Shown here in pieces: positions 30,832 through 35,294 of a DNA stretch of 64,000 nt (positions within the stretch are counted from its first letter, which is position 1; each line of letters starts with the position of its first letter). The stretch comes from Nocardioides dokdonensis FR1436. GTDB taxonomy: Bacteria; Actinomycetota; Actinomycetes; Propionibacteriales; Nocardioidaceae. The notes below the pieces were generated by a model, which was not told the origin of the DNA, did no database searches, and saw only the letters and a list, made by a program, of their open reading frames with translations. The position numbers and the translations under genes were made by a program. The stretch is from positions 1,240,001 to 1,304,000 of the forward strand of contig NZ_CP015079.1 in assembly GCF_001653335.1 (NCBI RefSeq), written 5' to 3'.

Positions 30832-32598
30832 TCAGTCGCGCAGCTTGGCCAGCCGGGCACGCAGCAGGTCGACGCGGTGGGCGTTGCCGTGCAGCTCCAC
30901 GTAGCTCTCGGCGTACGACGCCAGCAGCGCGTCGTCGAGCCGGCGCACCGCACCCGGGGGGTAGCGGTAGTCCATGCGCTGGTTGATGTCGGCCTCGTCG
31001 ACGGCGACCAGCGCCTCGGAGAGCTCGCCGAGGCTGGTGACGCCCAGCTCGAGCAGCAACCCGGAGATCCACGCGTAGTGGTCGGTGCGCGACCAGCCGG
31101 CATCGGCGTACTGCCCGGCGAGGAAGGCTGCCAGCTCACGCGGGTCGAGGCGCGGGTCGGCGTCGGGCTCGGCGACCTCGTCGTCGCCGGCGCGCGGGTC
31201 GGTGGCCTGGAGCCGGTCGCGGATCGTGGAGAACTCCCGGTCGGCCAGCTCCAGCAGCCCGGCGGCGAGGGTGAAGCGGCGGTCGAAGTCGCGCTCGTGC
31301 TCCTCGGGGACGACGCCCTTGTAGCGGATGTCGTGCTCGAACTCCGCCCACGCGTGCTGCAGGACGGTGCGGATCTGCACCGACGCGACCAGCCCGCGCA
31401 GCGACGACCACTCCGGGTCGCCCTCGCGAGCGCCGTCGAGGCCGACGACCTGGTGCCGGCTGGAGTACCCGAAGCGACCCTCGCTGGCGGTCTCCCGGCC
31501 CATGTCACGGTCGTCGTGGACGACGAGCTGGTCGCGGACCAGGTCGGCCACCGTCTCGACGTCGCGCTGGACGTAGGTGATGACCCGGACCCCGAGCTGG
31601 TCGGTGACCTCGGTCAGCGGGTCGCGGTAGAGCGGCCGGCTCCCCGGCCGGCCGTCGACGCTGCGGGCCGCCTTGGCCGCGAACGAGCCGACCGACTTGG
31701 TGCGCCCGGTGACGGAGAGGTAGTTGATGCCGGCCTCGTCGAGCAGCGACTGGACCAGCCGCACGTAGCGCTCCCCGGCGTCGCGCAGCTGCGGCAGGCG
31801 CGCGGCGTACGCCTGGGTGGCGGCCTGGACCGGGTCGGTGCGCGGCCGGCTGCGCCGCGGGCTGGGCTCGAGGTCGTCGGGGAGGGTCGGGACGACGACG
31901 TAGCCGTTCTCCCAGGAGCCCTCGGGACCCAGGTAGGTGGTGGTCGCGTCGGGGTGCAGGTCGGCGAAGAGCCCGACGTAGGCGCACACCACGGCGTCGA
32001 CCTGGTCCTCGACGACGCGCAGCTCGCTCTTGCGGGTGGCGCCCTCGACGTCGGCGCGCAGCCGGGTCCACGGCTCGCCGGCGGTGACCACGACGGTCTC
32101 CAGGTAGCCCATCAGCGCGAGCAGCTCGCTGCGCAGGCCCTCGAGGTCGCGCCCGGCCTTGTTCTTGTACTTCAGGCTGCGCCCGAGCCGGAACAGCGCG
32201 ACCGTGGCCGGGTGCGGGTAGACCTCGATCGCGCGCCGCTGCCGGCCGGACCGGGGGTTGAGGTCGAGACGCAGCTGACCGGCGATCCGGGCGCCGCGCG
32301 GGGTCTCGGCGAACTCGGGCTTGCCCGTGTTCGCCGGGTGGGCACCGGCGTCGAAGCGCGCGAAGTCCTTGTTCAGCGCGGCCTCGCAGCCGCGGTTGCC
32401 GGTGGCGTTGCGCACGATCAGCGGGGCGTCGATCGCCACCAGGCACGGCCCGCCGGCCACCACGCCCTCGACGGCCGCGGCCACCTCGTCGTCGGTGCGC
32501 TGCGCCGAGACGTGCAGCAGCCGCGCCTCGGGGTCCAGCACCGCGACCCCGGTGGGAGCGCGCTGGCCCCAGGCGAGGTCGATGCCGACGTAGTGCAT
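30832..32598 (-). CDS. DUF429 (RNase H-like) domain fused to RelA/SpoT (p)ppGpp-synthetase domain
   Basis: 588 aa in one uninterrupted frame starting MHYVGIDLAWG. Residues 1-240 match DUF429, a predicted RNase H-fold nuclease, with acidic candidates Asp7 (GIDLAWG), Asp57 (AIDAPL), Glu125 (EVYPHP) and Asp198/Asp201. A Pro/Arg linker (about 243-255) leads to an alarmone-synthetase domain at 265-430: GRTKSVGSFAAKAAR, the substrate-binding Asp333 in DQLGVRVI, the G-loop FGYSSRHQVV (Tyr378), and VQIRTVLQHAWAEFEHDIRYK. Residues 480-588 are a helical tail. The Glu that normally precedes the QIRT motif is Ser406. No hydrolase, TGS or ACT domain, so it is a small-alarmone-synthetase type. Function inferred; the fusion is directly visible. 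Confidence 0.85.
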   Translation of the reverse strand: MHYVGIDLAWGQRAPTGVAVLDPEARLLHVSAQRTDDEVAAAVEGVVAGGPCLVAIDAPLIVRNATGNRGCEAALNKDFARFDAGAHPANTGKPEFAETPRGARIAGQLRLDLNPRSGRQRRAIEVYPHPATVALFRLGRSLKYKNKAGRDLEGLRSELLALMGYLETVVVTAGEPWTRLRADVEGATRKSELRVVEDQVDAVVCAYVGLFADLHPDATTTYLGPEGSWENGYVVVPTLPDDLEPSPRRSRPRTDPVQAATQAYAARLPQLRDAGERYVRLVQSLLDEAGINYLSVTGRTKSVGSFAAKAARSVDGRPGSRPLYRDPLTEVTDQLGVRVITYVQRDVETVADLVRDQLVVHDDRDMGRETASEGRFGYSSRHQVVGLDGAREGDPEWSSLRGLVASVQIRTVLQHAWAEFEHDIRYKGVVPEEHERDFDRRFTLAAGLLELADREFSTIRDRLQATDPRAGDDEVAEPDADPRLDPRELAAFLAGQYADAGWSRTDHYAWISGLLLELGVTSLGELSEALVAVDEADINQRMDYRYPPGAVRRLDDALLASYAESYVELHGNAHRVDLLRARLAKLRD

Positions 32599-32648: not shown

Positions 32649-33839
32649 TCAGCCCTCGTGGATCGGCTCGGCGGGAAGCCGCTTGACCTTGCGGGTCCGG
32701 CGGCGTCGGCCCGGGATCATCGAGCGCATCTCCTCGAGCTTGCCGAAGCACAGCAGCCGGTCACCGGCCTCGAGCACGTGCCGGCTGTGCGGGTTCGGGA
32801 TGACGCTGGTGCCGCGCTGCAGCGTCAGCGCCGAGATGTCGCGCTCGCGCAGCCCCGACTCGCCCAGGGTCTTGCCCACGAGGTCGGAGGCGGCCTGCAC
32901 CGCGATCTCGGCGACGCCGTACCCGGTCGAGACCGTGAGCCGCTGGCGCACGTCGATCTCGGGGAAGGCGACCTGGTTGTCGATGAAGTCGATGATCGAG
33001 CCGGCGACGTCTAGGTCGGTGGCGCGCTCGATGCCCTCGAGCCCGGGCGAGGAGTTCACCTCCATCACCAGGGGACCGTCGTTGCCCTCGAGCATGTCGA
33101 CGCCGGCGACCCGCAGCCCCATGATCTGCGCGGCCCGCACCGCCACGCGCTCGTAGTCGGCGTCCAGGGTGACCGGCTCGACGGTGCCGCCGCGGTGCAC
33201 GTTGGAGCGGAACTCGTCGCCCTGCGCGACCCGGCGCATCGCCGCCACCACCCGGTCGCCGACCACCAGCGCGCGGATGTCGCGGCCCTTGCTCTCGGCG
33301 ACGAAGCGCTGGATGAGCACGTTCTGCCGGGTGCTGTGCAGGGTCTCGATGATCGCCTCGGCGACCTTGAGGGTGGGCGCCAGGATGACCCCGATGCCCT
33401 GGGTGCCCTCCAGGAGCTTGATCACCACCGGCGCCCCGCCGACCCGCTCGATGGCGGCGATGACGTCGGCCCGGTCGCGCACGAAGGTCGTGGCCGGCAT
33501 CCCGATGTGGTGCCGGGACAGGATCTGGGTCGCGCGCAGCTTGTCGCGCGAGTTCGTGATCCCCCACGACGTGCTGGGCGTGTAGACGTCCATCTGCTCG
33601 AACTGGCGCACCACGGCGGTGCCGAAGTACGTGATCGAGTTGCCGATGCGCGGCAGGATGGCGTCGTAGTGCGAGAGCCGCTTGCCCCGGAACTGCAGGT
33701 CCGGCTCGTCACCGGCGAGGTCGATGCCGAAACGCAGCGTGTTGAGCACCTTGACCTCGTGACCCCGGTCGAGGGCCGCGGTGCGCAGGCGCTGCGTACT
33801 GTACGACCGGGGCGCGCGGGACAGGATCGCGAGTTTCAT
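32649..33839 (-). CDS. RimK-family ATP-grasp glutamate ligase with C-terminal RCK_C-like domain
   Basis: 396 aa; typical RimK is about 300. Residues 1-95 are the RimK N-domain (DAILPRIGNSITYFGTAVVRQFE), 100-290 the ATP-grasp core with VVIKLLEGTQGIGVILA, LIQRFVAESKGRDIRALVVG, VAGVDMLEGNDGPLVMEVNSSPG. Residues 300-375 form an added domain like TrkA_C/RCK_C (AVQAASDLVGKTLGESGL ... LEAGDRLLCFG), followed by a basic tail. RimK adds glutamates to ribosomal protein S6 or other acceptors. The divergent gene 23 bp away encodes a RimB-type protease. Named as RimK-family because the acceptor is unproven. Confidence 0.9.
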   Translation of the reverse strand: MKLAILSRAPRSYSTQRLRTAALDRGHEVKVLNTLRFGIDLAGDEPDLQFRGKRLSHYDAILPRIGNSITYFGTAVVRQFEQMDVYTPSTSWGITNSRDKLRATQILSRHHIGMPATTFVRDRADVIAAIERVGGAPVVIKLLEGTQGIGVILAPTLKVAEAIIETLHSTRQNVLIQRFVAESKGRDIRALVVGDRVVAAMRRVAQGDEFRSNVHRGGTVEPVTLDADYERVAVRAAQIMGLRVAGVDMLEGNDGPLVMEVNSSPGLEGIERATDLDVAGSIIDFIDNQVAFPEIDVRQRLTVSTGYGVAEIAVQAASDLVGKTLGESGLRERDISALTLQRGTSVIPNPHSRHVLEAGDRLLCFGKLEEMRSMIPGRRRRTRKVKRLPAEPIHEG

Positions 33840-33862
33840 GGGTTCCAGACTGAGAGGCGACG

Positions 33863-34336
33863 GTGGAGACGGACCTTTCCTACACCCTGGCGGGGTGGCG
33901 GGAGTGGGTCAGCCTGCCCGATGCCGGTGTCGAGTGGATGAAGGCCAAGCTCGACACGGGGGCCCGGACCTCGGCGATCCACGCCTTCGACCTCGAGGAG
34001 CTCGAGCGCGACGGCCAGCAGCTCGTGCGCTTCTCCGTGCACCCCTGGCAGGCCACCGACGAGGACGCCGTGCTGGTCGAGAGCCCCGTGCTGGACCGTC
34101 GAGAGGTCCGCTCGTCCTCCGGCCACGTCGAGGAGCGGCTGGTGGTGCCGATGGCGCTCACCCTCGTCGGGCGCACCGTCACCGTCGAGATGAGCCTGAG
34201 CCGCCGCGACGAGATGGGCTTCCGGCTGCTCGTGGGGCGTGAGGCGCTGCGCCAGGGCTTCGTCGTGGACCCCGGCCACTCCTACCGCGGCGCCCGCCCG
34301 CCGGTCACCGTCCGCCGCCGCAACCGGGGCCGCTGA
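33863..34336 (+). CDS. RimB-type retropepsin-like ATP-dependent zinc protease domain protein
   Basis: 157 aa from a GTG. GWREWVSLPDAGVEWMKAKLDTGARTSAIHA holds the retropepsin-like DTGARTSA motif at about residues 31-38, and the second half GFRLLVGREALRQGFVVDP is typical of this family (formerly DUF785). Pseudomonas RimB removes or limits glutamates added by RimK. It starts 23 bp from the divergent rimK-like gene, and the aspartoacylase gene begins at its stop. Confidence 0.9.
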   Translation: METDLSYTLAGWREWVSLPDAGVEWMKAKLDTGARTSAIHAFDLEELERDGQQLVRFSVHPWQATDEDAVLVESPVLDRREVRSSSGHVEERLVVPMALTLVGRTVTVEMSLSRRDEMGFRLLVGREALRQGFVVDPGHSYRGARPPVTVRRRNRGR

Positions 34337-34337
34337 C

Positions 34338-35294
34338 GTGGCCCGCCCGTCGTTCGAGATCGGCCCCGTGCGGGTGCGCCCGGGGCGCGCCCAGTCGCTC
34401 GCGCTCCCGATCACCCGCCTGGTGACCGGTGCCGAGGTCGACCTGCCGGTCCGCGTCGTGCACGGGCGCGAGGACGGCCCCACCGTCTGGATCGACGCCG
34501 CCATCCACGGCGACGAGGCCGTCGGCGTCGAGGTGGTGCGCCAGGTGCTCGCCGACCTCGACCCGCGCACCCTGCGGGGCACGCTGATCGCGATCCCGAT
34601 CGTCAACGTCCTCGGCTTCATGACCGGCAGCCGCTACCTGCCCGACCGCCGCGACCTCAACCGGTCCTTCCCCGGCTCGGCCCGCGGCTCGCTGGCCGGT
34701 CGCATCGCGCACCTGATGATGACCGAGGTCGTCGCCAAGTGCTCGGTGGGCATCGACCTGCACACCGGCTCCGACCGGCGCACCAACCTGCCGCAGATCC
34801 GCACCGACCTCGAGGACCCCGAGACCCGTCGCCTGGCCGAGGCGTTCGCGGCGCCCGTGATGATGCACGCGCGGCTGCGGGACGGCTCGCTGCGCCACGC
34901 CGCGCGCGAGGAGGGCGCCAAGGTGCTGCTCTACGAGGCCGGCGAGGCCTGGCGGATGGACCCGTGGGCGATCGACGCCGGCGTGCGCGGCGTACGACGC
35001 GTGCTCGCGGCGCTGGAGATGACCGGGCCCGTCGACGAGGAGCCGCCGCCGGCCAGCCTCGAGAGCTGGCGCAGCGGCTGGGTGCGCGCGCGAGGCACCG
35101 GGATGCTGCACCTGGAGGCCGAGCTGGGCCAGCGTGTCGAGAAGGGCGAGCGCCTGGGCGGGCTCTTCGACTCCTTCGGCAAGCGGGTGCGACTGGTGCA
35201 CGCCGACCGCGCGGGCATCGTGGTGGGCCGCACCGAGGCACCGCTGGTGAGCTCGGGGGACGCGGTGCTCCACCTCGCCGAGGTCGAGCCGTGA
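34338..35294 (+). CDS. Succinylglutamate desuccinylase/aspartoacylase-family protein
   Basis: 318 aa from a GTG immediately after the RimB-type stop. Zn-carboxypeptidase-like motifs are present: AAIHGDEAVGVEV (His-x-x-Glu ligands, near residue 55), DRRDLNRSFPG (substrate Arg/Asn), GIDLHTGSDRR (third ligand) and LLYEAGEAW. A C-terminal barrel-sandwich region RGTGMLHLEAELGQRVEKGERLG follows. Proteins of this type recur beside rimK and rimB and are thought to act in the same glutamate-tail pathway; the exact substrate is not known. Confidence 0.9.
   Translation: MARPSFEIGPVRVRPGRAQSLALPITRLVTGAEVDLPVRVVHGREDGPTVWIDAAIHGDEAVGVEVVRQVLADLDPRTLRGTLIAIPIVNVLGFMTGSRYLPDRRDLNRSFPGSARGSLAGRIAHLMMTEVVAKCSVGIDLHTGSDRRTNLPQIRTDLEDPETRRLAEAFAAPVMMHARLRDGSLRHAAREEGAKVLLYEAGEAWRMDPWAIDAGVRGVRRVLAALEMTGPVDEEPPPASLESWRSGWVRARGTGMLHLEAELGQRVEKGERLGGLFDSFGKRVRLVHADRAGIVVGRTEAPLVSSGDAVLHLAEVEP

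Follow-up and report, generated by a model that had tools for sequence, protein, structure and literature searches.

A gene for a protein of 588 residues lies on the minus strand at positions 30832–32598 of the window, a stretch of 64,000 nucleotides from Nocardioides dokdonensis FR1436 (NZ_CP015079.1, positions 1,240,001 to 1,304,000). Judged from its sequence, the product is quite probably a homolog, and likely an ortholog, of the mycobacterial protein RelZ (MS_RHII-RSD), in which a nuclease and an alarmone synthetase are united in one protein. This assignment is supported by an intact two-domain reading frame, homology to mycobacterial proteins from end to end, invariant acidic residues in the nuclease half, and an ATP site that hardly varies in the synthetase half. 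The protein is an uncharacterized member of the RelZ family, and it is new only as a member. Positions below refer to the window.

Assignment to the RelZ Family

RelZ of Mycobacterium smegmatis (MSMEG_5849) is said to have been described by Murdeshwar and Chatterji in 2012, Krishnan in 2016, and Petchiappan in 2020. Its architecture is a DUF429 domain at the N-terminal side and a RelA_SpoT domain at the C-terminal side of one chain, and the same two domains are found in the same order in the window protein. Among 7993 scored candidates, 3353 match the window protein (P0002) with E-values ≤1e-3, and both Pfam domains are present in all 120 matches listed, the window protein included. The identity is 58% over 594 columns to a protein of Mycobacterium tusciae (P0274) and 55% over 593 columns to a protein of Mycobacterium vanbaalenii (L056), and both species are named as having RHII-RSD orthologs (PMC7591505). 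The window protein comes from another genus and family than RelZ, but it has a residue set in common with the mycobacterial RelZ proteins, including the Ser at the place of a metal ligand.

The frame begins with Met, ends with Asp before the stop codon, and contains no internal stops. The GC content at its three codon positions is 77, 48, and 98%, which is that of a real gene; the plus strand is likewise stop-free, the usual shadow of a high-GC gene. The earlier note, made from the sequence alone, had described a single frame of 588 codons with no strand given, joining a DUF429 RNase H-like domain to a small-alarmone-synthetase domain. This was borne out on the minus strand, with both domains recognized by Pfam. 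All the motifs it named are present: Asp7, Asp57, Glu125, Asp198, and Asp201 in the DUF429 half, and TKSVGSFAAK, DQLGVRVI, FGYSSRH, and QIRTVLQHAWAEFEHD in the synthetase half. A stop or frameshift in the linker was looked for, and none was found; the entire frame is retained with 89–90% identity in three genomes, the most similar ones in the genus survey (L166–L168).

The claim that no function had been described for this pairing did not hold. The pairing of nuclease and synthetase has been characterized since 2012 in M. smegmatis RelZ, and some database matches already bear the title "bifunctional ribonuclease/(p)ppGpp synthase". The combination of DUF429 and a synthetase was noted for Actinobacteria, and the fusion was recorded in Mycobacterium and Marmoricola (PMC5566576). 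RelZ as reported makes pGpp and (p)ppGpp with a preference for GMP, cleaves RNA-DNA hybrids and R-loops, and shows both activities only as the full-length hexamer. Both the nuclease and the synthetase activity are reported for M. smegmatis RelZ in PMC7591505 and restated in PMC8622095 and PMC10112252, while PMC11653572 uses the site neighboring relZ for integration only. RelS of Corynebacterium glutamicum, from the actRel subgroup, is also an actinobacterial small alarmone synthetase that converts GMP to pGpp, but it has no nuclease domain and is reported to be highly Mg2+-dependent, whereas the activity of MS_RHII-RSD is cited as Mg2+-independent (PMC5566576).

The Nuclease Domain

The DUF429 match has an E-value of 2.3e-29, above the curated cut-off. 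The place of Asp7 is occupied by Asp in all 336 database proteins, all 96 fused rows, and all 20 stand-alone DUF429 rows. A structure search with residues 1–222 listed 50 entries headed by RuvC and other resolvases. Both the RuvC fold and an acidic site ending in D-x-x-D are present in these residues, and the D-x-x-D spacing is that of the acidic site of RuvC. The fold and the acidic site are common to RuvC-type resolvases, TEFM, and Tex/SPT6, but the 588-residue protein has no Pfam match to their families. DUF429 was placed in one clade with RuvC, RuvX, Tex, and SPT6 (PMC3985635).

RNase HII activity has been attributed to DUF429 (PMC4429107, PMC4300193), and RelZ is reported with this activity. 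RNase HII (RnhB, PF01351) belongs to the same RNase H-like superfamily, but no sequence-family match to PF01351 was found in the protein among Pfam matches at E-values ≤1. RNase HII is absent among the 50 structural entries listed, an absence that is no exclusion. The genome of N. dokdonensis FR1436 (4.38 Mb, single contig) has a single PF01351 match, at C1:2637132-2637671 and away from the relZ-like gene, together with two RNase HI matches.

The Synthetase Domain and the Replaced Metal Ligand

The RelA_SpoT match has an E-value of 6.1e-14, also above the curated cut-off. Its nearest structural matches are RelP and RelQ (PDB 6EWZ, 5DEC), which have the fold of residues 252–466 and most ATP-site residues in common with it; CapRel and FaRel2 are among the matches. 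In Staphylococcus aureus RelP, ATP is surrounded by Arg78, Lys80, Ser84, Lys88, Arg91, Asp107, Arg112, Glu174, and His190, of which Asp107 and Glu174 hold Mg2+, and the ATP and catalytic residues are strictly conserved in RelP/RelQ (PMC5794853). The window protein differs in this metal pair, with Asp333 and Ser406. In the alignment to 6EWZ (residues 331–441 versus 105–209), Asp333 falls on Asp107 and Ser406 on Glu174, and the alignments to RelQ-type chains place the Ser directly over the Glu. Ser406 precedes VQIRT, where canonical synthetases have Glu, and it was overlooked in the earlier note. The remaining RelP ATP-site residues correspond by spacing to R299, K301, S305, K309, R312, R338, and H422. 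The synthetase fold and the ATP site outside the metal pair are thus present, and the pair itself is incomplete.

The replacement runs through the family. Of the 336 database proteins, 231 have Ser at position 406, 103 have Gln, 2 have Ala, and none has Glu; the 96 fused loci have Ser (74), Gln (20), Ala (1), or Glu (1) there. R299, K301, S305, K309, D333, R338, and H422 are invariant across both sets, and R312 is retained in 329 of 336 proteins and 94 of 96 loci. The two sets overlap in origin and contain related rows, and thus they are not independent; P0001, a translation of the opposite strand, was left out of the counts. Ser occupies the place in 215 of 216 proteins from the set found with mycobacterial queries.

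Among stand-alone synthetases, 11 close relatives of the synthetase half have Ser at this place and three more have Gln, while nine distant ones (30–39% identical) have Glu, eight by pattern and L147 by alignment. L143 is read as Thr in the alignment-wide counts and as Glu in an earlier pattern reading of loci L033–L165. The stand-alone synthetases with Ser or Gln (L129–L139 and L172–L174), 53–72% identical to the C-terminal half, come from genomes of the genus of the window and of another family. The only fused member found with Glu in the ExQxRT motif is L127 (7992–11489, genome G066), which reads VEIQIRT and offers a natural counterpart for comparison. An acidic residue compensating for the lost Glu was sought by comparing 442 rows with Ser, Gln, or Ala with 9 rows with Glu. 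D287, D365, and E455 stand out, and no claim is made for them because the Glu rows are only nine and mostly distant.

The alignments suggest that the handling of Mg2+ is likely to be changed by Ser406, and that the synthetase probably has one protein metal ligand, Asp333, instead of two, a feature that appears new within the literature covered. No statement on the missing Glu in RelZ was found in a literature search that did not extend to the primary RelZ papers. As one ligand is replaced and the rest of the site is nearly frozen, changed chemistry is indicated more than decay. With a single protein metal ligand, the reported Mg2+-independence of M. smegmatis RelZ would be accounted for; Ser406 fits this cited property and is no proof of it.

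Distribution of Fused and Separate Forms

The genome scans scored 2–6 candidates per genome, and weak second copies may be missed. In the class, 79 of 296 genomes gave a match: the full-length fusion in 22, a close synthetase half (56–66% identical) in 11, and a DUF429 half or a distant synthetase in the rest. The genus of the window is richer, with matches in 189 of 195 genomes and none in 6. The full-length protein is present in 112 of them, N. dokdonensis FR1436 included, where it is the sole RelZ match. Another 66 have a synthetase half with a best E-value of 1e-106 to 1e-142; they are counted as stand-alone by this range, and 36 were seen as match rows. One further match ends at residue 487, and 10 are weaker. 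In the mycobacterial genus of genome G140, 211 of 248 genomes match, among them 70 with the fusion (in one case starting at residue 27); all further matches listed are to the DUF429 half only. A wide survey finding the domains always as separate genes had been named as a possible refutation, and the outcome was different: the two genus samples contain 112 and 70 genomes with the fusion, and separate forms occur too.

A Pfam search revealed a different DUF429 gene (139–174 bits), which escapes the RelZ query, in 8 of the 11 class genomes with a close synthetase half, and none in the other 3. The proposal that genomes with a stand-alone synthetase have no DUF429 at all was therefore rejected. 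This distant DUF429 type, in which the D, D, E, D-x-x-D pattern is kept by eye, was found at E-values ≤6.9e-43 in 46 of the 195 genus genomes: 44 of the 66 with a synthetase half, 2 of the 6 without a RelZ relative, and none of the 112 with the fusion. The other 22 synthetase-half genomes consist of 13 without DUF429 and 9 with a weaker match. In 12 fused genomes of the genus, the fused copy is the sole DUF429. Outside the genus, none of 12 fused genomes has the distant type, but it is present in 3 of 5 fusion-free genomes from the same family.

The either-or pattern gives a Fisher p of 1.5e-25, uncorrected and ignoring relatedness. A tree-aware test with 28 rows yielded 1 independent pair on starred branches and 4 at most (sign test p 1), which is too weak. 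The favored explanation is that a free nuclease replaced the fused one, and a clade effect may lie behind the pattern. The pattern suggests that the nuclease function is of importance and that it can be provided by different routes.

Two of the nine synthetase-half genomes with a weaker DUF429 match are G325, which has both halves side by side, and G327, which probably has a fusion with a divergent nuclease half. The distant DUF429 type (L175–L212, for example L207 6001–6636) scores 139–186 bits to Pfam and escapes the RelZ query; within the samples searched, it is confined to genomes that lack the RelZ fusion.

History of the Two Halves

Phylogenetic trees were built from 18 of the 68 loci L033–L100 plus later loci, and the synthetase-half trees leave out 8 distant rows with long branches. 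The synthetase tree requires 5 changes between fused and stand-alone forms (5–6 over bootstraps), and the DUF429 tree 6 (5–7 over bootstraps); because the rooting is uncertain, either losses or gains could account for these changes. Stand-alone RelZ-type DUF429 genes adjoin fused relZ in three mycobacterial loci: L047 (7133–9713), L052 (6866–9743), and L070 (7728–10606). The trees of the two halves of the mycobacterial fusions conflict. The DUF429 data reject the group L068+L082+L084 favored by the synthetase half (approximately unbiased test, p-AU 2.4e-5), and the synthetase data reject the group L068+L070+L073+L077 favored by the DUF429 half (p-AU 1.2e-4), with groups picked after the trees were seen. 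A likely reason for this conflict is that gene copies have exchanged their nuclease halves.

Locus and Neighboring Genes

The features of the gene and its upstream neighbor are summarized in Table 1.

Table 1. Positions of the relZ-like gene, its predicted parts, and the adjacent gene in the window
Feature	Position	Strand	Remark
relZ-like gene, 588 aa	30832..32598	minus	ATG at 32598, stop TGA 30832-30834
DUF429 domain, predicted RuvC-fold nuclease, residues 5-217	31948..32586	minus	
Asp7 codon, first acidic residue of the predicted nuclease site	32578..32580	minus	conservation across homologs
D198-x-x-D201 codons	31996..32007	minus	spacing like D-x-x-D of RuvC
Pro/Arg linker between domains, about residues 243-258	31825..31872	minus	predicted local distance difference test (pLDDT) of model 80-89
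RelA_SpoT synthetase domain, residues 298-427	31318..31707	minus	
Asp333 codon, counterpart of Mg2+ ligand Asp107 of S. aureus RelP	31600..31602	minus	
Ser406 codon, at the place of Mg2+ ligand Glu174 of S. aureus RelP (ExQxRT motif)	31381..31383	minus	
C-terminal helical extension, residues 466-588	30835..31203	minus	common to stand-alone homologs
RimK ATP-grasp + TrkA_C gene	32649..33839	minus, upstream of relZ-like gene	ends 50 bp before relZ start

The upstream gene and the relZ-like gene form a possible operon. The downstream neighbor is a convergent nitroreductase gene with a 9-bp gap, and the five neighbor genes scanned by Pfam are all metabolic. Elsewhere in the genome there is one further RelA_SpoT frame, of 771 residues. 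When ten neighbor genes from the window were compared with the fetched loci, the gene order was retained only in L166–L168, and RimK adjoins relZ only there; an operon conserved beyond close kin was therefore rejected. ABC and PQQ genes are still nearby in L122, and a few distant ABC-ATPase or kinase matches at other loci are meaningless for the neighborhood.

RimK (with TrkA_C), a PF05618 Zn_protease gene, and an AstE/AspA-like gene are grouped beside relZ at 32649–35294. The trio, perhaps a RimK-RimB type set, is retained in L166–L168; in L133 it is found again, some 3.4 kb away from a stand-alone relZ-type synthetase.

Probable Role and Alternative Explanations

In the most probable reading, the predicted RuvC-fold domain would remove RNA-DNA hybrids or R-loops, the predicted synthetase domain of the same chain would make the alarmone pGpp or (p)ppGpp, and the Nocardioides bacterium would use both RelZ activities in replication-transcription conflicts. 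Several points weigh against this reading. No row named M. smegmatis is among the homolog matches listed, many of which are nameless, and the identity to the characterized enzyme therefore rests on named species of the same group. Synthetase halves without a fused nuclease are common, in 11 class genomes and, by the E-value range, in 66 of the 195 genus genomes, 13 of which have no DUF429 match. The gene neighborhood is conserved only in the three most similar genomes, and Ser406 could mean a weak or dead synthetase. Tight coupling is opposed by the observations that either RelZ domain stays active after inactivation of the other and that R-loops have no effect on pGpp synthesis (PMC7591505), and the role of RelZ is called "not certain" (PMC11345224). 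The earlier note was right about the pairing of the two domains, and both activities are reported for RelZ, but the coupling of cleavage to signaling that it proposed is not shown even in RelZ.

A synthetase half that has become a pseudo-enzyme or regulatory domain, binding ATP and a guanine nucleotide (or pppGpp) to gate the nuclease without making alarmone, is unlikely. It would agree with the loss of Glu in all 336 database proteins and in 95 of the 96 fused loci, and with the regulation of M. smegmatis RelZ by single-stranded RNA and pppGpp (PMC7591505). However, seven of the other eight RelP ATP-site residues are invariant, although a domain that only binds would not have to retain them; M. 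smegmatis RelZ is reported to have synthetase activity (PMC7591505), and Ser is the rule in the set found with mycobacterial queries. The inhibition of pGpp synthesis by single-stranded RNA (PMC7591505) could also be read as substrate competition, in which the nuclease would cut RNA and the synthetase would use ATP to pyrophosphorylate the 3' end of the cut RNA, either in place of GMP or in addition to it. The structural relatives include CapRel, which is a tRNA pyrophosphokinase, and a metal ligand in the active site is altered; nevertheless there is no direct evidence for such RNA-end modification, the nearest folds are RelP/RelQ, and single-stranded RNA also regulates RelQ, which is an ordinary alarmone synthetase (PMC7591505). 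It is the least probable of the explanations considered, and very improbable in itself.

Toxicity or phage defense, which the earlier note had put forward, was left unsupported. An effector that on activation cuts nucleic acid and poisons nucleotide or tRNA metabolism would be in line with matches to the PADLOC candidate profiles PDC-S44 (1.3e-74, nuclease half) and PDC-S33 (1.1e-7, synthetase half) and with CapRel and FaRel2 among the structural matches. The fusion or a close synthetase half is, however, found in most genomes of the genus, and the scanned neighbors are metabolic. For a toxic small alarmone synthetase (toxSAS), there is no adjacent antitoxin gene and no room for one between the flanking genes, with gaps of 50 and 9 bp. 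A scan of IMG/VR for close relatives, which bears on a phage-borne or mobile origin, was empty; 2 stretches matched the pattern and neither is a relative. A defense effector is accordingly improbable. The two PADLOC profiles also match stand-alone relatives, and the DUF429 families on which PDC-S44 is based may be housekeeping genes listed among defense candidates. The name PDC-S44 occurs in one paper of the literature searched.

Significance

Since the pairing of the two domains is already known, the value of the analysis is what the wide comparison adds. RelZ extends beyond a few environmental mycobacteria to 112 of 195 genomes of the genus of the window and 70 of 248 of the mycobacterial genus. 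The RuvC-type fold replaces the family label "RNase HII", which makes branched substrates of interest, and the either-or pattern is relevant to the published claim that each RelZ domain needs the other. Worth following are the missing metal ligand, the fold of RuvC type, and the either-or distribution of the nuclease. Tentatively, the residue pattern raises the possibility that RelZ is a separate catalytic class of alarmone synthetase that lost the metal-gripping Glu of RelP, RelQ, and distant stand-alone relatives, retained almost the whole remaining ATP site, and would make alarmone, from GMP first, with little or no bound Mg2+. Its RuvC-type nuclease half would be a replaceable module, supplied either in fused form or as a distant free DUF429 with matching acidic residues (no genome of the samples searched has both), and in mycobacteria this module would have moved between fused and free copies. 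Ser406 offers a one-residue, directly testable explanation of the odd metal behavior of RelZ, and if such a class exists, one residue would explain the oddities reported for M. smegmatis RelZ.
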